From NCBI RefSeq assembly GCF_964204645.1, contig NC_134026.1, forward strand, positions 13,912,450 to 13,976,449: DNA of 64,000 nt, in the 5' to 3' direction. Below the pieces are notes generated by a model. The model was not told the origin of the DNA. It ran no database searches and saw nothing but the letters and a program-made list of their open reading frames with translations. The translations under genes were made by a program, and so were the position numbers. Each line of letters opens with the position of its first letter. Positions within the stretch are counted from its first letter, which is position 1. Below, piece by piece: positions 1,716 to 42,700 of this stretch. This stretch comes from Tubulanus polymorphus (taxonomy: Eukaryota > Nemertea > Palaeonemertea > Tubulaniformes > Tubulanidae).

Positions 1716-3917
1716 AAACTAGATGAATCATTGAACACATCCCACACAATAAATCGTTATATCATACGCCGTGAGTATCAGTATTCGCGCTAGAAATGAT
1801 GAATATGAACCTCTTCAATTGTGCCGCCATTTTACTTAGCACCTGCTGATCGACCTCATTTACATATTCAATGAATGCTATGACGTCATTCAAGCCAGTT
1901 CAACACAAATTATACATAACCGAGATTTTGGGGGGTTTCGTCTTTGAAAGCCCCATAACTACCGAAAAAAGCTTCGGATCTTGACGAGATAAAGTTCTTC
2001 CGACACAAATAGCATTGAATTTCACATGTGTTATTTTGGACAGTTAAAGATGCTGCATAAAAAATGTGCTCAAATAAATCGAATTTTTGAGACTTTTTGG
2101 TTAATTTCTCAAAAAATATGAAACCCACAGCTTTCAACTTTGCGCACCATAACGAAAAACAAATTACGAAATATATTTTTGCTTCATCCGTTCAATTCGC
2201 CCATTAGTAGTAAAATAAACAGACTAATGAAATTGAGTTCGAGTGTGCTTAAAGCTTTGAGCTTTGAGCGTAGTGCTGGTGGGCCCTTTGGGAATACAAA
2301 TATATATATGAAAGATCAAGGTGATTAGTAGCCTAATAATTGCCCCTACTGAACAACCCACTCCCTCTGGAATATAGGTAGCCAAGTACATATTTTGACT
2401 ATGTTGCATTAGGCCTATGCCAGTCAACCCAGCTTTTTTGACATATATATATATATATACACACAGTTAAACTCACTTAATTCGTCGTCGGTTAATTTGT
2501 ATAACTACCTAATTCTTCTAACACGAGCCCCAAGGGGCACCATGGCAAGCCTGTCAACTTTTCATAAAATAGCAAATGATGCATTCTGTGGGTTTTGTCC
2601 AAATAAACTCCCAGCGATAGACTAGTCAATCCCAGGCAAATAATTTACACAATTCAATCGTGTTTTCATAAGTAGCACAGACAGCGACTGGAGCTGACAG
2701 GAACAAATACCTTAGATAAATCTCTTCCCTTGGTCTTATTGATTTGAATGCGGAATAGAATTGAATTTTCTGAAATTTGCTCAATAAAACAACATTAAAT
2801 TGGATTTGCTGTTTAACCTTGTTCAATAAAGTAGATTTTTTGCAGAATGAAATTTGATTGAATTTGCGGTTTGAGCAAATGGCTAATTAACATATCAAGG
2901 TCGTCCATGCATTTCGTGAAAAAGTTATTCTTTCTGGACTTTGCATAATTGTCAATGATATTTTCAGTACTGCAAAAATAAAAATGTTCCTCCCAAAAAC
3001 CAAATTCTAAAAACTTCACAGAAATCAATCTTGAAATACAATTTTAAATCTTAAAATAATACCCCGAAATTAAACAGTATACGATACCACGGGTTCACGT
3101 GAACACCTGCTGATTTCTGCAGCTAAGCTAATCATAAAGGAGTCTTTGCTTTCTGATATTTTTGCGTTCAGATTTTCGCGAAAAAGCTCTTATCAATTTT
3201 AACGAGGCCCATTTTCAAAATTCAGCTCACTACAATTTGGCGAATGGATAATGCTTCAATGAATGATATGTATGAATATATGCTAAGTTGCAGTCACAAG
3301 GGCCTTAGCTCTGGAAACCATGAAATTAAAATTTGCTCCCATTGTATGAATAAATTGCCCATGGGCAAAGTGCAGTTTACCTTGAAAAAGCTAGAGGTTG
3401 TTTGGATCAAGGGCTTTACTGCCTTTACTGCATTACTTTTAATCTTTTTAATTCATGACTTCAAAGTTCTATAAGTTTATATTGTATTTTAACTTTCTCA
3501 AAGAATTATTTTGTAGTCAAATAAGACCAAAGATATACATTGTTTACGGTCCACGCACAACATTTAGTAGGGTACAAATAGGCGCGGCAGGGAAACTATC
3601 CAATATTTTGAAAAAGTATTTTTCACAATATGAATAATTCTAGAACAAAATTCATATGATGTCAGCAATCGGAGGATGGCTGAATATTGAGTCTTGGAAA
3701 TCTCTTCCAATGTATGGCTGTGGAAGATAAAATACCGGTACCGTAAAATATCGGCGTATGCAAGTAGATCGATAAAAATCCTGGATTCTACCACTAAAAT
3801 ATTCAGACCTAGAACTAGTTGGCTGCTAAGTATTTTCAGGTCACAAGAAATTACAATTTGCTACAAATCAAACACAGCGCTCATCTTCTGCTATAAAAGT
3901 TTAAAAGATTATTCATA

Positions 3918-4460: not shown

Positions 4461-4939
4461 AAAGCGTATTTTCATGTCAAACGTGCACGCGCCAGAAAGC
4501 AGTGTTATTACAGTAGCACTATATATAGTAGTGTATACTGTACAATTGTGTGTGTAACAGTCTAATGCACTCTGCGCGCACGTGGAGGCCTTATCTGTAA
4601 GTGAATGTTCTCTTACACTTCAATGACAATCATAACCATCCCCGGGGATTAAAATGAAACAATACCTATGGCGGATATGTGAAATAATTATATTCTCACC
4701 AGCAATGAGCATTTGGAATTCGCACTTTTACGGCACCTAGTCCAATCAAACGTTCGCCATTCATAGCTTTCCCATGGTTATTTTAGTAGCGCCAGAATTC
4801 CCCGTGTATCCCAGAAACAGCCAATCACATTCGATACTAGAGACGACACCCCCAAATAAAGGTCATTGCAATTTAATACACAAGAGCTAAGAATTTTCCC
4901 GCCAAAAACAGTTTTTGTAGAATTTTAACAAAGTTGACC

Positions 4940-5086
4940 ATGTCATCGATGGAGGTTCGCCATGTATTCAATCGCATCGATTATATGTCGTTTAGGCCGA
5001 CAACCAATAAAACATATGCTCACACAAAAAATGTACTACGATTTTACATGAATTGGCTCAATGCCAACTTCATATCGCTGACAAAG
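4940..5086 (+). other. Repeated exon-like ORF start with splice donor, copy 1
   Basis: ATG followed by 49 codons ([20 protein letters not shown], then an Asn-rich stretch ending FYMNWLNANFISLTK) stops at a consensus-like donor aaag|gtaaat. The same stretch with its upstream sequence recurs at 25431-25578, and its last 70 bp near 19950-20025. It looks like the first coding exon of a gene carried in repeat family R. The product is unrecognised. A spacing of Thr/Asn-rich residues then a W-L motif faintly recalls N-terminal parts of Crypton/ZMYM-type proteins, but this is weak. Confidence 0.4.
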
Positions 5087-5150
5087 GTAAATAAAAATAC
5101 AAGAGGCTCACGGGCCTTATACCTTCATGACGCAGTAGAAGAAGAATGAT

Positions 5151-8100
5151 CTAGTTTTCAATGTTTTACAGAAAGTTACATTGTAGCGATGTAACAAGTT
5201 TCAAAATAGTTAATATGGTATCAAACCTGCTTACCCATAAAATTTCAACATCAGTAGTATTACATATTTATCTCAGTAAAACTAAGCTCACATGAGTAGT
5301 TTTAATGAATGTCCGTCAGTAGCTTCCGATTAAGCAACAGTAGTTTTATGCCATAAAATCAGTACTTTCCTTTAGAGTATCATTAGTATCAGAAAACAGA
5401 ATTAATCAAAAAAATAAAATTGAATGTTGTTTACTTTTTAAATTTTTCATTGCTCTTCCTGCCAATGAGTTCCAAAATCTGAGGATCGGAGGGTAACAAG
5501 CGGCCCATGGGCCTTGAAGCATTTACAGAAGATTATACTGTGGTAAGGTATTAAGTGGTTAATGCTTTACATCTGCCGGAAAATGTTCTATGACGATGTT
5601 GATTGGGAGGACCACAGACTAAGAATTGAAATGAATTTCATTTTTCTGCTGAACGATTTAGCCTATACTATTTGTATTGTTTAACCTTGTTAATGCTATT
5701 TTGTTAAGGAGGAAACTAGTTTATTCTGATGTTTTCCATCATGTCCCAGCTAAGAGATTTATATCAATCAAGATTTATATACTAAAACCCATTTATTTAA
5801 TACAACAATTTCGGCACTAGTTTCGTCTACACAATATTCGTATTTAACATACAACTGTAAGGGTAATCTCGACTGACTGTGGTTTTCCTTGCATGAACTG
5901 TTATGCCCTATTGCTGAATAATGAAAACGAAAACAGAACGATTTTTCTGAATGCAAAATACTCTGTTGCATAATAGTTATAGATCAAGCGGACTAATGTA
6001 CGCATCAAAACGTCGCACAGAGAGCAATGCCGGCATTGGTGTCACTATTGAGGCAGGCTGATGATTGCTTGTTTGACTGTTTTTGATTGTTTACGTCGTT
6101 CGGACCTTAGTTTTTAACCCTATTGTTTTGTTCATTTAACCTCACGACTGGACGGCCTTTGAAGTGTTGCCTGCACACAAGTGTTGTAAGCAGTCAGCAG
6201 GACTCGAACCCACTTGTCACTCAGCACAGATAGTGCATGCAACAGCATCACGCCTTACCTCACTGAGCTACCGAAGCCGCTGGATTGAATTCCGAAAAGA
6301 ACTACAGTAGCGGCAAATAACCATCGCATATTGCAATTCACGACAAACAATGTTGAAATTTAATCACTGTTATGGTGTTCAATGCGTGGAAAAGATAAAA
6401 GTTTTTTTTCCAGCGTGCATTTCAAAGCGAATCTATCTGCTGAGTGGCTGCTACCGCCTGGTGAGTGCGCCGGAGGCGGGTTGGGCATCTTAAAGTGAAA
6501 ACTTATTGTAGAATATAGCTGAACCGATGGAATTTTACAATAAACTGTCAGTCAACTGATTGATGATACAACATGGTCGTTCTCGGCATACTTTAACAAT
6601 GATATACCCCCTATAAACAACTATGGTAAAATTGAATAAAATTATCCGTCTTCATTGGTGGAATCATATCATGGTGTTAGCCTACCGTTTACCATTTAAT
6701 GTTTCGTGACATCATGAAATGGTTTTAACTTTTGTAAAGGCGTTCCCGCACAATCACATAATTTACCTGTACAGGCTTCAGTCAAGAGAAGGCCTGTTGT
6801 ACCACTGCTCTAGAATTACGTATTCTGACGCCGAAAATTAATCCCAATTAATCCGATGAATACTGATAGTTGGAATAACAGTGATATTAAAACACTATGA
6901 TATTTATAAATCGGAGGTACATAATTTCATGTTTTTCTATTCAGAAGAGGCCATTCCCCATTCTTTACTGCCAATGTCAATGCGGACATATCACTAGCCG
7001 ATTGCATAACCCCCTCTCATCCACCAGATAACTAATGAGAAAAATGCGATAGAATAACTTTTTTGGCCATTAAATCAGAAATCTGGCAATGCAATCTTGT
7101 TGGGAATAATTGAAAAATTATTTTGAGTCATTTTCAGCTCTGTCTTCTGTTTTACGGGAACGTAGTTACAATTTGAAGTAACTATGAAAATGAGAAGTCA
7201 GTGCTTTTTTCGACTACGACTTTCGATCCATTCTACTAGCAATGGCATGAGGTCATAGACATCAACCAATGCTAAAAACCTCAATTAACCCAGACATAAT
7301 GTTCAAAATGTAGCATTAATTTAGCAATATCGATCTTTTCCCAGGAGTGAATCTACTAAGTATTATGGAAAAGGTATCAATCAGGCAGGTGCTGCCACTA
7401 TCGGGTGATGAAAGGTTGAGTAGTGGGTTTTCCCCAAGGGTGAAAATGTCTATTAATAAAGTCAGGAAAATAATCGTTTCATAAGAAAATACAAAAAAAC
7501 AATTTCATTTTCATTTTTATTTCGCCTTCCAACATTAAACCTACCTTCAAAATAAAAAAGCCTGGCCACACGAAATACAGTAAAAACCACATATAAGTCA
7601 ATGAGTCTTTAACCCCAGGTTTTACCAGCTGAAGAAATATTTATCACGACGTTTATTCATACTTGTCTACTACTTAGTATTTTTCAGGAAACGATAAAAT
7701 ATTCATTGAAAGTTTATTTATTATAAAAACTTTTCATTCAAACACGGTATGAAAACGTAATTATAACGTACACGCATATGTGAGCATTGGTATGCTGTCA
7801 CGAGTGACTGTGTGTATATAGTGTGTGTAAAGAGATTATATTGATCATACACAGTAGCAATGCAGTGAAAGAAGAGATGGACGCACGTGTATGCCACTGC
7901 CATATATTCAATACTCTGACCCGATTTGCGAGCAGTAGAAGAAAACAAACCCGTACTCCCGCTTTTGAAAGTTCATAACCGTTTTCACAGATGTGATGAT
8001 ATACTTTAGCCGTATTTTCATACAGGAAGATAAAACAAATCCGTATTTTGAAAAGAACATATGAAAAACCATAGTTTATATGGACCATCCGTACTTCCGT

Positions 8101-8190
8101 ATTTAGCTATTAAAATCTGTACCAAATACGGAAATACCATGGGGATTAGCAGGTCTGCCCTGGTGAACATAGGCTAAGCCCAATGACCGC
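5151..8190. other. Intronic sequence, no gene recognised
   Basis: About 3 kb without a supportable gene. It contains a hairpin-headed repeat trace (caagcggcccatgggccttg near 5497) and the tRNA-like sequence at 6194-6281. Open frames here are short and have no recognisable similarity. Confidence 0.5.
6194..6281 (-). repeat. tRNA-like sequence (tRNA pseudogene or SINE head)
   Basis: Read on the minus strand, an A-box-like GGTAGCTCAGTGAGGTAAGG is followed about 45 bp later by a B box GGGTTCGAGTCC. These are the internal RNA polymerase III promoter elements. The spacing is too long for a normal tRNA without an intron or variable arm, and the stems pair poorly. A SINE head or decayed tRNA copy is most likely. 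Confidence 0.5.
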
Positions 8191-8600
8191 GAATCTCACT
8201 TCATTCATAGAACATGTTATGAGCTACAACAGTGCAATTGATCATGGTAACAAAATAGGTCTAGGTACCAATATAATAAGGAAATACTAAGCTATTTTAC
8301 TTTTCAACGCCCCCTGGTGACTACATGGAGTAACAAATGACCTTGAAACCCACCACAATCATTGAACAAGTCATGAGCTACAACTTTTCAATTGATTGTG
8401 GTAACAAAATATGCATAGGTACAAATATAATATAGAAATACTAAGTTATTGCATGTTCAATGCCCCCTGGTGGCCATATATAAAAACTAATGAAAAAAAC
8501 TAATGATCTCATAGAACACGTTATGAGCTACAACTTTCCAATTGATTGTGGTAACAAAATATGCTTAGGTATCAATATAATGTGGAAATACTTTTTTCCA
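8190..8600. repeat. ~150-bp tandem repeat, about 3 units, each with a CCCCCTGGTG core
   Basis: Units share catagaacatgttatgagct, attgattgtggtaacaaaat and acgccccctggtg. Related single units occur at 34350-34500, and at 36235-36332, where the unit resumes at 41932 after the transposon A insertion. The core matches the animal CTCF consensus on the opposite strand. Confidence 0.8.
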
Positions 8601-8717
8601 CCTACGAATGAGTACTGATGACACCAAGATGGCCGCCAACTGCATCATTAATGGCTGATCAAAAATACCTGTCTCAGGTATAAAAGAACTTCAAAGAATA
8701 CCCATCACAAATTGCAA

Positions 8718-33700: not shown

Positions 33701-36700
33701 CACCTTAAGGCCAACTGCTAGCTGTACCCTGAGGGCCTATAGCTAGTCTTACGATTGACCAAGTGGAACAGGAAAACAGCGGAAGAACACCAGAAACGCA
33801 AGATTAATTATGGGCATTTTGGACTTGACAATTTTGATCCCGTGAGACAATGACATAAAACAACTAAAACTTGAACATAAACTACTCGGGACAAACAAAA
33901 TCAGAAGCTGCTATATAACTTTTTCAATTTCAGGGCAGTACATATATTAAACCAGGATGGCCGGTTACTGTTGAAATCAAGTTCATCAACTGAATGAATG
34001 TGGCTTTCAATAGTTTCATTCATGATAGCTTTTAATAGTAAAGCGTGGGAAGCGTTATCTATTACTACACGTAATCGATACATAAATGGTTAACGGTTAA
34101 TGCGTTATTGCTGACAATGCAATCAACACGCGTCGTGCACTGAGTATTAAAGATATCAAAATCATCAGTGTTGTAAACTAACTACAAGATAGCCAGGCTC
34201 CAACGTTTGCTAACGTAATGGACCTGCTTACCCAAAAATTTCAACATCAGTAGTATTACATATTTATTTCAATAAACTAAGGGTCCAGGGACACCATGCC
34301 CACTTGGAAAGTGGTTTCAAATGCTCAACAATCTAACAACTTCAATATTCAACGCCCCCTGGTGACCATATACAAAACTAATGACCTTGAAACTCACCAA
34401 AATCAAAGAACATGTCAGCAGATACAATTTTTTAATTGATTGTGATAACAAAATATGCATAGGTACAAATATAACATAGAAATACTAAGTTGCCTAGTGA
34501 CCATGGGGATGGAAGGAAGAATGAACATCTAAGCTCCATGTAACTTCTACATATTTAACAGAAACAACATCTTCCAGCCATCTAACTTAGCAGGACAATG
34601 TTAAATAATACACAGGGATTCTTCTGAATATTGCTTCAACAACTACGATCTTCCCTAAGAAAATCTGTGAGTGTTTTAAAAGTGAAATCTGTGGGAAATC
34701 ATCCAAGCAACTTAGCAACCACCAGTCAGCAACCATTTCAGACAAGGGAAACCATGGCAACAAAGGTAAAGGGCTGTGACAAAAAAGAGCAAATTCATGA
34801 AGAAGCTCTGAAGTTTGCTGAGAGTCTAGCAGAACTGGACAGTGATTGTGATTCAACACTAGAAGATGATGAATGGGAAAACTATGAACCGTGCTCTAAA
34901 TGTAACCGTCTGTTTAATTTTGAAAACGAGATCGTCCAGTGTTCCAAGTGCGGTCAGTCAATTTGTAATAACTGCTCCAACGCAGCTGAAAATGCAGAGA
35001 ATCTGCCGGTTAAATATCTGTGTAGTCGATGTTTGACTGATTTTCAAACTGAGCAGAAATTTCAAGAGATGGAGACCATTAAATTGGAGATAAAGAACAT
35101 GAGAGAAATATTCTTTAACGCTATAGAAATTTTAGAATCCCGGATTACCAAAATACATCAAAAAGTTTCTGCAAAAGAAAGCTATAAAACAAATAAATGC
35201 ATAGCTGACATCAGAGAAAAAATCGAGACTCATAGTAGACTATTGGATACGAACTCAAAAAATCTCGATATTCTTTCAAATCAAATTAAGCAGATTGAGA
35301 GTGAAAATATGGTCTTCAAGAAATCTACCCATAAAATGGAAGCTGGATTTAACACTTCAACAAAAACATTGACAGAGGAAATCAGTGTTTCAAATAGCTC
35401 TTCAAATGATGAGAGACGGTCACACATTATCATATATAACATACCTGAATCAGATAATAAGATTATTTGTGACGACACTTCTCGGGTGGAAAGATTTCTA
35501 AATGGTATCATTAAACTTGGTGCAGCCAACTTAAGAGACATCAGAAGAATTGGCAATAAAAATCAAACGAGACCACGTCCCATAAGAGTGATATTTACCA
35601 ATGTAAATGATCGGGTTCAATGCGTAGAGAATTATATAAAATTAAAAAGGATCGAACCTGCAACACTCAACGGGATCCAATTAGCTAAGAACAGAAAAAA
35701 AAAGGAGCAACAACAGCATGTCAAGAAGAAGAGTGGAACCCAACTACAGCATGGATGTGTACCGGAACAGAACAATATATCAAAAACGACACTATTTATA
35801 ATATTCATGCTATATCTAAATATTGATATCACATTTTTTATCAATGTGGAAATAACTGAGAAAAACTTATTTAGATAACTTGAGTATTGATAACTATCTC
35901 AAAAGTCTTTCTCTAAAAAACTATTAGAACTTATTAACTATATATAGATAACTTTATTATTCTTTAAAATCTAAACTCGAAATGATACCGATAGATTATT
36001 GATATCAATATTTTTAACTAGTCATGTAATGTTACAATAATTCTAACCATTCTAACTGATCTAAAGAACATTTAACACGCATCTTTAAGATGGGCTAGGT
36101 GCAGATCAAACTATGAGCATCGAGAAATATCTTAAATATCACCTAAATTTATGTAAATTACCAAACGAGCCGGACATCAAAAGGCCTCAACATGATGATG
36201 ATGATGATGATGATGATGAAGTTATTGTATTATTCAACGCCCCCTGGTGGCCATATACAAAAACCAATTGACCTTGAAACACACCAAAATCATAGAACAC
36301 ATTATGAGCTGCAACTTTCCCATTGATTGTGGCTACGAGCAATTATCTAACATGAGGAAGCTCGCCCTATATCTCTGTACACAAGATCAGTAACGCTGTC
36401 AATCAAACTGTCTACGACCATACAAACTACACACGCTGGGGTATATCTGGCTCAGATGAAAGACGTGGAAGAAACAGCACCAACTGTTTATCGGTAGGTA
36501 ATACAGAAATATTGCAGCCATTATGTCCAACAAAATATTTCTTTAAAGTGGCTAGATGTGGCCGCATACACATCTACTATTGAGAATTCCTCTGTAATAA
36601 TACGTAGAGATATTAATACAGGATCTATACTCCTACTTTTTGTAAAATGCACTTCAATTTTTCATCTTTTCTTCAGAGAATTTGTCATGGGAAATTTTGT

Positions 36701-39700
36701 TGCAAAGAGGAGTGCCACCAGCTTCAATCAAGTCTCGTTTGATCCAGCGACGGAATGGATGAACAGGATCTGTAAATTGGCGAATGGAATTATCGGGGTT
36801 TCTACAGGTTGGTTGAAAACTAGGAATTTTTGCACACTCAGTTGCAATGGGGGTCACATTCTTCTAAATGTTTGTTTACATTTTTAGTAAGATACTTTTC
36901 AGATCCCGTTAAGTCTGGGGAAAGTGGTTTAATAAACTAATTTCAGTGACAGGCTCTCAACCACCATACATTATCATTCTAGATGAAAAAGCAAGAAATC
37001 GATTCTGCATCACGTGGGCGACTAAATCACAAATAATGCAAGAGACAAAGATGTTGTTAGGTTTGGCAGATGCAGATTCAGACAGTAATATTACTACACG
37101 AAAGGAGGCATTGCCTCGTAGAGTATCCAGCGACAAAGCAGCAATCGAAAAACTCAGTCTCCTTAATAGTTTTAGAGTAAGTATACTACCGATTTCAATG
37201 TGAGATTTCTAATTCGATACGCTCGTACATGATGTGCTCAATTATGATCACATTTTATTTTTTTTGAAGGTCTTTGAAAGTGCTCCATCGGGACTTCCTA
37301 GATCTATCGTAACCAACGAAGTTGCCACAGTTAAGATAACGAAGGATCTTCTTTCCGCATCACAGTTGGGTAGAAAACATGTCGAGGCAGTGATAACTAA
37401 TCGACTTATGGACAAATCAACTGATTTCTTTCATCCAATCCCACAACAGAAGGCACAGACATTCAAAAATCTATACGATGCTCCTGTAGAAAAGCCAAAG
37501 ACTACCAAAAAGTACAAATTAGATTCTGATTCTGCTAAGTTCTTGCGGAAACTATTTATCGCTTCACAGAATGGTCGTGACGTAGACATGGCATATATTC
37601 TCAAGCATGAATTGGCAGAATTTCCACCTGCACTAACCACCCACTGTGGGGATATAAGACAGACGTCAAAAAGTATGATTGTTAATATCCTGGCGAAGGA
37701 AGGCTCTGTTGATGTGTATGATAGATCATGACTAAATGAAAGCTGACTGGAAAATCAGTAGTGATAATTGATGGATGTGCAATGATTCAAAAAATTGGCA
37801 GTCCATCGAAACTGTGTACCACATTTGGAGATTATGCAGAATTATTCCGTCAAAAGGTAACACCGATGGATAGTCAGTTTTCATTTTATGAAATGAGATA
37901 TCGTGGGGTCACCTCACTTAGAGACCAGACGAGAGTGTCTATTCACCTATTGCCCTAACCACAAAGCTCCCTTTCTAAATGCGTACTTCTTATCATATTC
38001 AGGTTTACCGTCAGAAGCTTGATGATACATTCCAGATCGATGTTGTTTGATAGATATTATGGAGAAACATCAATGAAGAGAGTTACTAGAGAGAAGAGGT
38101 CTAAAAAGATAAACACACCTGGAGTACGACAATTAATAACAGAGAAAACACCTTTTACAAAAGTAGAATATCATTAATAAATTTCATTTTCGAAATTTCA
38201 ATTTTGATTAATTGCATTTCTATCAAGATAGTACTGGTAATCTTCAATGTAAATTTTTAGGTCTGGAAAGCTTTCATCAAATGCGAGGAAAACAAGGCAG
38301 ACTTGGTAGATTTCCTTCGTCAGCATATGATTAAATCGGAACACGAAGTAAATATAATTACCAGTGGAGGAAGAAGGAACCCCACCTCGTCATTCGCCGG
38401 GGAAATGGCTGCGTTGGAATGCTTACATGAGGAAGCTGACACCAGGATCATATTTCACATGTTTCATGCAGTGAAAAATGGCAAGTAAAATATCATTGCT
38501 TTTTTCGATAATCAACAACCTATCCCAACTTCCTGGCTTGAAATTGCATATACCTCAGCATCAATATTTTGATTTTTCACATTTGTAAAGCTGCTTACAT
38601 GTATCATGTTATGTCGATATTTATCTGTCTATTTTTATTTATAGATGCAACTAGAGTGGTGGTATTGGCTGATGATATGGATGTTCTGCTTCTCTTGCTA
38701 CATTTTGCTAAAGACATCGATGCGGTAATGATCAGTCGAAACAAAGTTTATGTGATTGAGAAACTAAGAGCATCAATCAATGATAACATCCTGACCAATA
38801 TCCTCGGATGGCATGCCCTTACCAGTACCGACACAACAAGTTCGCTGACAGGAATAGGCAAGAAAACTGCTTGGGATATCTTCAAGGCCTCATCGCAGCT
38901 TCTTGAAGGCGTTGGTAGGGACGGTAATTTACCGTAAAAACCGGTGTATACGTCGAGTTTTTAACCCCTGATTTTACCACTAAATTATTGACCTCGACTT
39001 ATACGCCGAGTACAGTTTTCTACGAAGTATTTTCAGGTCACAAGAAATATTGATTCTACCAGACAAAAAAGACAGTGTTCATCTTCTTACTGCTATAACA
39101 GTTTGAATAATTATTCATGATAAATAAAGTTATTTAATGAAAAAAACTTCTTTCATTTTGACACAGCTTCATTTAAAACCATGTATTCATATATGCGCGC
39201 TCATAGCAGCGCTTAATACATTAGGCTATATATAGCGTGTGACTCACACTACTGTATCACTGTATGGTAGTGTATTATACCTGAGTGTGTGTAACAGTCT
39301 ATTGATTAACACACAGCAGCAATCAGGCTGACGCGTGGCGGCGTGCGTGAAGGCACACATCCTTATCAAAACAAACTATTCAATACAATGATACTAGTAA
39401 TTATTCTTCTAAGAGAAGGGACTCGACTTATAAGCCGGATATATGTTAAAATCATGAAATGTAGGTCTAAAAATCGACCTCGACTTATACGCCGTGTAGA
39501 CTTATACGCCGGTTTTTACGGTAGATGAAATTGAGAGATTTATCTGTAGATTGTACGGAAGTGAATGCAGCATGTGTTGAACTGTACAGAGAAAATCGAA
39601 GGAACTAACGGCACTATCACCTACAAGAGATGCACTGAACCTTCACTACTTGAGAGCAAATTATCAATGTAAAGTTTGGTTATCAGCTGATAGAGTAAAT

Positions 39701-42700
39701 CCTATTGGAGAGCCTAAAGATTCAGGTGGTTGGGCGCTTGATAATGGGCGACTGACTATTGTTCACAGATTCATCGAGGCTATACCAACAAATTATGATG
39801 AGATAGTCACTTGTAAATGCACAAAGGGTTGTAAAAAATTGTGTAAATGTAAGAAATTGGGAAAAAGGTGCATCAAATTATGTCTTTGTCACGGTTTGTG
39901 CTAAACGATTTAGATATTATGCAATATAAAAACATGAATTTATTCTGACCGACTTAAGATATTTTATCCTTTTTTTCCCATGCAGAAATGAATATTTTAG
40001 ATTACTTGATTATCTAGATTTAAAAACCTGGTGATAAGTTGATTGTAGCTTTTTTCTCTACCCAAAAACGGGTAGAGCGACCCCAAAAACATAGGAATCG
40101 ATACCAGTATCACTTTTCTGTGACAACTCAAGATCGGACCGTAACCAAAATCATTTCATAGGCATTTTCATGCATTTGCCGCCTTGGTTACCATGGAGAC
40201 AGTCAACAATGTTGGAGTACAACCTTTAACAGTATGTGCTTCCATGGTAACGGAGTTTGTTTGATGTTGATGTCTCACAGCAACAGGAGTGTCGGTTATC
40301 CATTTATCCATTAATTGAAAGGATGGAGACATCCAAATCTATGGTGTCATAGCAACGGCGTTTCAACAATGATGGTCATTATGATTCGTCATATGGAACA
40401 CGGGCAGTCTCTATAAATGAATTATGGTATTATTTGGTTAACTAAAACTGATAAATATAATTCCCGTGTCTTTGCATTAACAGAAACTTAACTTTCAGCC
40501 CTGTGAACAGCGCAAAAATTAGGTCGCTAGGCAACAGCCAACAATATATGATTTTAAACGTTGGATTCCTGGGTTTGACAAAACATATCGTGAACGATTC
40601 ATGCGTATATATATGAAACCATACTCTGCTGACGTGTAAAAGGTCAACAACTTTTTAACTCTTCAGTTGGCGTCGTCACGCCTCACGTAAATTTGCAATA
40701 TATTTGACGATTTTCCTTCTTAACGAATACCCCGTATTTAGCGCCCCCTATAGGCCGAAAGTGAAAAATCACAGAGCGGCAGACAGCTGTTTCAGGGTGA
40801 GGGGAGTCTCACCTTTCATTTAAGCCTGGGTGCCAAGCTCTACCCAAAAATGCCGAAAGATTGGTCTTGGATGGCTGACTAGTCGGGGCAGGGCTAATTG
40901 ATGAGCCTATTGTTCGGATTTTTGGGTGTGATGTATTCACCTCAACAGACATGGATAAAATGAGCCAGACTATAGAATATCAAAACTCAGTATATGTACA
41001 AATTACAAAATAAAGTATTTCATGGTCCAAGAAGTAATTTTCATCTTTTATAAAGGTATAATAGAGGTAACTACTCTTTCATATTTTTAATCTAATATTT
41101 CCATGTTGTGTACATGTATTGCATCAAGACAATTTTCAGTATATTTCTGTTTTAATTTTCGAGATAACTTATATTTGTTTAGTACACCAACAAAACATTC
41201 AATGACATCATGTGAAATTGGAAAGAACGACAATGTTTCATACAACTTTGTCGATGAAAAACTGTGGAGTTGGTTGTCCGTGATTGATGTATTCTAAGGA
41301 TATATTTTTCTGAATTTCTGTAGTAAATAAACAGTGTCCATGCAGTTTCTAATCAATTTCTGTTAAGAAGATACACCAACTATTTACCTATGTGATCACC
41401 ATTTCTAGAAAAAAATCAGTCGAAATGATGATCGGCCATATTTGAGGTGAATGTATTGTATTTTTGTAAGATTTTGCAGCATTTTACCCTAATTCCGCAT
41501 TCATCGGAATGTCATCCCAGCATTCATCAACACTTCATACTTAAAACTGCATACTTCATTCACAGGAACTGTCAGGAACATATAAAATATGTGATTTATA
41601 AAATATATTTATTGCAGAACTTACTAAAAATCTCTGGAGATCCAATAATATCGTAAAAATCTTAATTATCAACCGATTTTCAAAATGTTTTCACTGAGCT
41701 GTGGATTTCGTAAGCGCGGTCATTCTGGTGCAAAATACGCATGCGTCAGTTGGCTACGTCATCTTAAAACTACCTCAATGGATTGCTTTTAGAATCAACG
41801 CGCAGCACTGCTGTCCAGCGATGTCGAATCCCAAACACCCCTGACTGTATGATTGACAGCGTTACTGATCGTACCAGTGTGTAGTACACTGATATAGGGC
41901 GAGCTTCCTCCAGTGAGATAATTGCTCGTAGATTGTGGTAACACAATATGCTTAGGTATCAATATAATGTGGAAAAACTTTTTCCCACCTACGAATCAGT
42001 ACTGATGACACCAAAATGGCCGCAAATTGTGTCATAATTGGCTGATCAAAAAAACCTGTCTCATGTATAAAATTTCCATTTCCAAAGAATACCCATCACA
42101 AATTGCAATGAGAAATGGCAAACCAGTAGGAAGCTACAGAACTCAGAATTCGACCAAAATTGAGATTTTGGGCACGAAAAAGGTCATAGGACGGCCATCT
42201 TGATCTTGATCTTGATCCGATCGACCCAATTTTTCTTAAGCTGATGGACCCTTGGGGGAATCAAATACATACGACACATCAAGGTAATTGATCAAAGCGT
42301 CTTCAAAATTTTCCTCAAAAAGTTCAAAAATGTGTAAAAAGTGATTTTGGCAAACAACAATGGCTGCCAGTTGGCCATCTTGAATCTGACAGGGCCAGTT
42401 CTTGGGCTGAAGATGCGTCTTGGGTAGATGCATTTGTAACCCAAATACCAAGACATTACATTGAGGCGTCTTCAAAACTTCCCAAAAGTAACTGGATTCC
42501 GTCCACTAGACGTACGAACGAACGAATGGACGGACGAAAAGTCAACGGACGAAAAGTGAACGCAAGTGAGTCCCAAGTGGGCTAAAAAATCAGTCAACAA
42601 TTGCGGCCTCTATGCTGTTAATGTCATTTTTCATGTCGGCCCCCTGGTGGCAATAATTTGAGTTGAATCAACCCTATCTTAAATAGGCTTTTGTCCCAAG

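Follow-up and report, generated by a model that had tools for sequence, protein, structure and literature searches.

A gene-bearing, probably AcademX-like transposon nested in a second DNA transposon of the nemertean Tubulanus polymorphus

Does a gene that lies between the ends of a transposon belong to that transposon? The question is raised by a 64,000-nucleotide stretch of the Tubulanus polymorphus genome (RefSeq assembly GCF_964204645.1, contig NC_134026.1, positions 13,912,450 to 13,976,449 of the forward strand; hereafter the window). At window positions 36333-41931, terminal inverted repeats (TIRs) enclose a gene copy with the motifs of FEN1/XPG nucleases and a CXC-like cysteine cluster. 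An earlier sequence-only reading took this segment for one element and the gene for its cargo or part of its mobility machinery. We searched the assembly (267.8 Mb, 77 contigs) for relatives of both the ends and the gene. The explanation that fits best, and that we hold as a whole to be highly probable, is that the segment consists of two unrelated DNA transposons, the gene-bearing one inserted in the other. Coordinates of all features are given in Table 1.

The outermost 16 bp of the outer element, CTACGAGCAATTATCT, are perfectly inverted-repeated. The arms 36333-36380 and 41884-41931 are 90% complementary, and the arms 36385-36412 and 41843-41870 are 93% complementary, which gives an imperfect TIR of about 80-89 bp in total (about 85 bp in the sequence-only reading). 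ATTGTGG borders the element on the left and on the right as a 7-bp target site duplication (TSD), and uninterrupted copies of the target are present in the window, both as first described. The joined flanks were 84% identical to window 8443-8717 over 287 columns, unbroken across the insertion site, and 81% identical to window 8289-8442 and 34346-34486. The target is itself repetitive, with three adjoining units at window 8158-8717.

The outer left TIR has at least 28 matches in the assembly. Besides the window copy, 18 loci of this family were fetched. One of them, L009 (C2:12823700-12830400), carries a 99.9% identical composite about 1.1 Mb from the window copy; its flanks are 99.6-100% identical, and it is a recent segmental duplication or an assembly duplicate. 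Flanking 7-mers were compared in ten end-pairs, the window pair included, as the sequence-only reading had proposed. An exact 7-bp TSD was found in eight of the ten, or in seven of nine without L009. The 7-mers were all distinct among the seven independent exact cases. In the other two pairs (L014 and L015) the left end is damaged and a 7-bp TSD is absent. A further, very short member (L017), left out of these counts, has six of seven TSD bases alike by eye. Because exact 7-bp TSDs recur across independent end-pairs, the outer transposon family is real, beyond chance.

Short outer copies hold element positions 1-79 and about 4550-5599. Their junction reads CAATCAAACTGTTGGCGCAGGGCTAATTG, and the window copy reads CAATCAAACT-GTC-(block)-GTC-GGGGCAGGGCTAATTG. 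The junction was read in twelve loci (L010-L019, L022, L024), and in all twelve the block was absent and the sequence continuous with small variants; the remaining five fetched loci, with a right-type match or a damaged end, fall outside this count. L009, the duplicate of the window copy, carries the block. When nine of the 89 homologues of the inner protein were compared by tblastn with the 18 loci, coding matches were detected in L009 and in none of the 17 others. These counts speak against the gene as cargo or machinery of the 7-bp-TSD element. No gene of its own was seen in the outer element, which in the explanation preferred here is about 1.1 kb long, non-autonomous and mobilised in trans by a transposase encoded elsewhere.

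The same short copies could be read in another way: the family with the 7-bp TSD would use the FEN/CXC protein as its transposase, and its short copies would be internal deletions, since they retain both end portions as deletion derivatives would. We regard this reading of a single transposon as very improbable and strongly disfavour it. The junction is the same in copies whose longer matches are about 74-92% identical, L016 included; an independent family, with relatives that make 3-bp TSDs, ends at element position 4549/4550; and, the duplicate L009 aside, the protein is encoded in none of the other fetched members. L016:593-3404, 2812 bp long, belongs to the outer family and has an exact TSD of its own and different open frames, namely a cysteine-rich piece followed by ..AGYICFKLLKHY..MINRGGLYQI... 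These frames may be a remnant of the transposase of the outer family. One of them has four matches in the genome, itself among them, and thus three further relatives; two gave no Pfam model above cut-off and no meaningful match in the PDB.

At its right edge the block carries the terminus of a different transposon family, TAGTCAGCC...GGCTGACTA. Three related gene copies (C2:131, C7:117 and C6:133) diverge from the block and from one another within a few bases of this edge. The divergence point reads GGATGGCGGACTA in C7:117 and GGAATA in C2:131, while C6:133 shows a small rearrangement. As the three copies share this point, it marks the terminus of another transposon, at which the block ends. 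The edge also resembles the TIR of a further relative, C5: TAGTCAGCCAKCCAA ... GCATTTTT ... AGCTTGGCA. Read inward, the right end of the block is TAGTCAGCCATCCAA...GGCATTTTTGGGTAGAGCTTGGCA and that of C5 is TAGTCAGCCAGCCAA...GGCATTTTTTGTTACAGCTTGGCA.

In the C5 relative the inverted repeats, about 1 kb long, are 99.4% alike, and the element measures 8,400 bp between its ends. It encloses exons for one zinc-finger pair, the DUF6589 region, the FEN-like part and CXC; its DUF6589 region falls below the Pfam cut-off, as in the other relatives in this genome. The C5 end sequence has 41 matches in the genome, and the true ends were located by copy-to-copy comparison. A scripted search around seven relatives for TIRs with TSDs of 4-10 bp, and then for long inverted repeats, had yielded weak pairs or inverted repeats with misplaced ends, which were rejected. 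C5 and six more pairs were examined; an evident pair at C2:11.71 Mb, with one end partial, and eight single ends were left out. All seven pairs have the outer bases TAGTCAGCCAGCCAA and an exact 3-bp TSD. The repeat stops at 3 bp in six pairs by script and in C5 by its flanks, and reaches 4 bp in none. The distance to a C5-type end is 1.4 kb for gene copy C6:14922874, 1.0 kb for C1:15840834 and 1.5 kb for the C5 gene itself. The end type of the nested block has 18 matches in the genome; among ten loci fetched, one, a short derivative (L061), shows by eye both ends, with variants, and TAA on each side. The gene is thus multicopy because it is borne by a transposon, as the sequence-only reading had supposed, but the transposon is the inner one, with TAGTC...GACTA ends and a 3-bp TSD. 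Among inner-gene relatives, C3:17729588, C8:9144128 and C2:18601568 have open frames of 1097, 847 and 659 residues and probably form one subfamily. Gene clusters or pieces that we take to be Polinton-like adjoin some ends and gene copies (L021, L026, C6:133, C2:146).

Several observations weigh against the preferred explanation. The left edge of the block falls inside coding sequence and not in a TIR; the GTC repeat may therefore have arisen by chance (1 in 64), or the block may be a captured piece. Search and comparison did not resolve the left ends of C2:131, C7:117 and C6:133, and neither an intact composite nor a second independent insertion of the composite was found. The C5 copy itself apparently has a frame break. 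The more distant C2:176 has the ends TAGTAG..CTACTA (TAGTAGAGGAGCAG), flanks AAG and ATG, and no 3-bp TSD. Capture would mean that the 7-bp-TSD transposon took up a piece of the nuclease gene by transduplication and moves it. A left edge at an arbitrary point of the gene would fit such an event, and so would a whole composite between good TIRs with a TSD. We consider capture unlikely, however, as the block ends on the right in a transposon terminus similar to the C5 TIR, a 3-bp repeat borders the block, and the single composite insertion is matched by nothing other than a segmental duplicate with the same flanks.

Under nesting, the missing left end can be explained by the bases at the junction. 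The AcademX-like transposon would have entered the outer element with duplication of 3 bp (GTC), and the intact left junction would be expected to read GTC-TA-GTCAGCC. The observed junction is GTC-TA-CGACC, running on into the codons Val-Tyr-Asp. A deletion between two GTCTA words, one formed by the duplication GTC and the end TA and the other by the codons GTC TAC, would take away the left end together with the 5′ half of the gene, and is plausibly the cause of the loss. The frame break and the 600-bp insertion would have come after it.

The window gene begins at YDHTNY (about residue 879 of 1,595). Its N-terminal half is missing, and the copy therefore lacks D506 and D677. Its acidic motifs follow one another as in FEN, and GIGKKT and a CXC-like cysteine cluster are present; no Pfam match was obtained with its last coding piece, though homologues match CXC. 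The multi-exon gene of the sequence-only reading stands as far as its motifs go, but the first half is absent, the frame is broken and an exon is interrupted. This copy looks dead. The insertion in the exon has 28-bp inverted repeats of the TTACCGTAAAAACC type, and stretches resembling parts of it lie towards the left end of the window, at 3817-3916 and 4509-4567.

To describe the protein in its complete form, the joined exons of the C5 relative were used as query and gave 23 proteins, whose alignment gave at least 81 among the best 8,000 candidates scored. Thirty-one long members were picked for alignment from the 89 homologues found. Full-length proteins have about 1,500-1,600 residues, in the order zinc fingers, DUF6589 region, FEN1/XPG-like nuclease and CXC. 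Residues D506 (in D506-N-x-D), D677, H706 and E933 are invariant in all 31, as are D1189, D1233, D1337, D1361, D1363 and D1417 in the FEN-like part. Two N-terminal Cys/His pairs, G703 (in GxxH), E1334, E1335, K1427 and the CXC cysteines are kept in at least 90%. At E up to 1, DUF6589 (PF20231) was matched in 17 of the 31 members and the Tesmin/TSO1-like CXC domain (PF03638) in nine (best E 2.9e-5); member P0003 scores 32.6 bits for DUF6589 against a curated cut-off of 27. The DUF6589 region probably represents a DDE (RNase H-like) transposase core. The signature D, D, C/DxxH, E is not present as such: DDE transposases of hAT, P, MuDR, Kolobok and Dada have C/DxxH, whereas nearly all of the 31 have GxxH. 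A whole-protein profile gave no match in the PDB, and no relative was found in viral contigs.

The order of acidic motifs in the family (IDG, FDRY, HEEAD, RDTD, GCD) is that of FEN1, EXO1 and XPG, and we take it to match FEN1 position by position; GxGKK is present in most members. A profile of the FEN-like region (14 members) was compared with 177,635 PDB sequences. Three reached E 10, all of them exonuclease 1, with the matches at two expected motifs (E 1.5-1.6). In hhalign, against a shallow profile of 13 FEN1 proteins (12 vertebrate and one moth, of 120 listed), 192 columns aligned in order with P 0.013 and 0.008. The score was 26.8. Ten column shuffles stayed at or below 16.8, the reversed profile scored 16.7, and two further regions of the protein scored 14.8 and 14.2. 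Some results tell against the assignment. The sequence is very remote from FEN1, EXO1 and XPG, and no XPG family model matched in Pfam and NCBIfam scans. The best PDB profile match is weak (exonuclease 1, E 1.5), the hhalign probability to FEN1 is just 3-5%, and the DUF6589 control region reaches 25.0 where the FEN-like region has 26.8, although its alignment spans 24 columns and not 192. Nine Pfam families were reported for the FEN-like region; XRN_N and NYN, which are PIN-like, each matched one of the 14 members, and the other seven were unrelated. The NCBIfam scan of this region gave nothing relevant. Host XPG_I exons were located elsewhere (four matches). Weak as they are, the statistics lean in one direction, and the FEN-like region is likely a nuclease.

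Academ elements in Repbase combine an XPG nuclease with a cysteine-rich motif. The AcademX lineage is said to go back to Kojima (2020). As to where the inner family belongs, the passages of PMC10045372 on these lineages give a TSD of 3 or 4 bp for AcademX and of 9 or 10 bp for AcademH, and tie the difference to the nuclease and helicase that the two encode. A TSD of this AcademX length was found in the C5-type pairs, in L061 and at the window block, and not in C2:176. Nuclease and transposase are encoded together in AcademX according to the same passages, as they likely are in the inner family by its motifs. DUF6589, the CXC annotation and the TAGTC ends are features of the inner family that lie outside those passages. 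By this printed description the inner family is likely AcademX-like. The sequence-only reading had set Academ aside for its shorter TSDs, because it attributed to the gene's element the 7-bp TSD that in fact belongs to the outer one; with 3 bp the objection falls. The inner family might instead represent an unnamed DUF6589-FEN-CXC superfamily with 3-bp TSDs. Our literature search gave no paper on DUF6589 and no printed link between DUF6589 and Academ, nor any usable paper joining CXC with FEN1 or Academ with XPG. We consider a separate superfamily rather improbable, as the AcademX traits described in PMC10045372, a TSD of 3 or 4 bp and a nuclease, agree with the inner family.

Dada was also considered, because of the 7-bp TSD and the D-D-xxH-E pattern. 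In PMC3706591, the Dada TSD range of 6-7 bp takes in that of the outer element, and the protein resembles the inner one in being long and multi-exon, with zinc fingers as well as a D, D, xxH, E pattern. However, many Dada families target specific RNA genes, whereas the seven outer TSDs all differ, and the outer element does not have a fixed insertion site in snRNA or tRNA genes as the named Dada target families do. The inner family has GxxH where Dada has DxxH, and its TSD is 3 bp. Kinship with Dada was rejected on these grounds.

Member P0042 of the inner protein family, from the coral Porites evermanni, is annotated as a Tesmin/TSO1-like CXC domain-containing protein with a precomputed DUF6589 match. 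It is named as an ordinary protein, whereas its relatives in the T. polymorphus genome sit within transposons.

From the domain order, the DDE part would most likely cut and join the TAGTC ends, the flap-nuclease part would trim strands in excision or integration, and the zinc fingers and CXC would bind DNA. For the DDE part the proposal draws on PMC9587614 and PMC3706591. More tentatively, the invertebrate proteins labelled DUF6589 and Tesmin/TSO1-like CXC may perhaps be one transposase family with the flap nuclease as a required second catalytic centre, in which the DDE core would join strands and the FEN-like domain would cut the second strand or flaps and so fix the 3-bp TSD. The two labels, uninformative in themselves, are now linked to a transposon family whose ends and 3-bp TSD are defined, with the order zinc finger, putative DDE, FEN-like and CXC, and the idea of a gene carried by a 7-bp-TSD transposon is replaced by a tested reading of one element nested in another. 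If the link holds beyond T. polymorphus, genes of this kind should be counted with transposons when invertebrate genes are catalogued, and what a flap nuclease built into the protein does in transposition can be put to the test.

Table 1. Features of the nested transposons, the gene copy and the target copies, in window coordinates
Feature	Position	Strand	Remark
Outer element, CTACGAG...CTCGTAG ends, split by nested block	36333..41931	+	non-autonomous DNA transposon
Outer left TIR	36333..36412	+	
Outer right TIR	41843..41931	-	
Outer 7-bp TSD ATTGTGG, left	36326..36332	+	
Outer 7-bp TSD, right	41932..41938	+	
Uninterrupted target copy of outer element	8443..8717	+	joined-flank comparison
Second uninterrupted target copy	34346..34486	+	joined-flank comparison
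Nested block, 4469 bp, 5′-truncated, likely AcademX-like transposon	36413..40881	+	
GTC, left 3-bp repeat bordering nested block	36410..36412	+	
GTC, right 3-bp repeat bordering nested block	40882..40884	+	
Right terminus of nested transposon (reverse complement TAGTCAGCCATCCAAGACC..)	40830..40881	+	
Broken coding pieces, residues about 879-1165 of a protein of ~1,600 residues; start YDHTNY; frame break near 37729-37745	36413..37731	+	
Broken coding pieces of FEN/XPG-like domain	37740..38926	+	
Insertion of ~600 bp with 28-bp inverted repeats, in coding exon	38927..39526	.	
Last coding piece, C-terminal CXC-like cysteine cluster, frame end 39904	39527..39904	+	

Directly to the left of the outer element, an open frame of 416 residues at window 34628-35878 contains a PHD-like cysteine motif. 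Its C-terminal half is presumably like ORF1 of a non-LTR retrotransposon.

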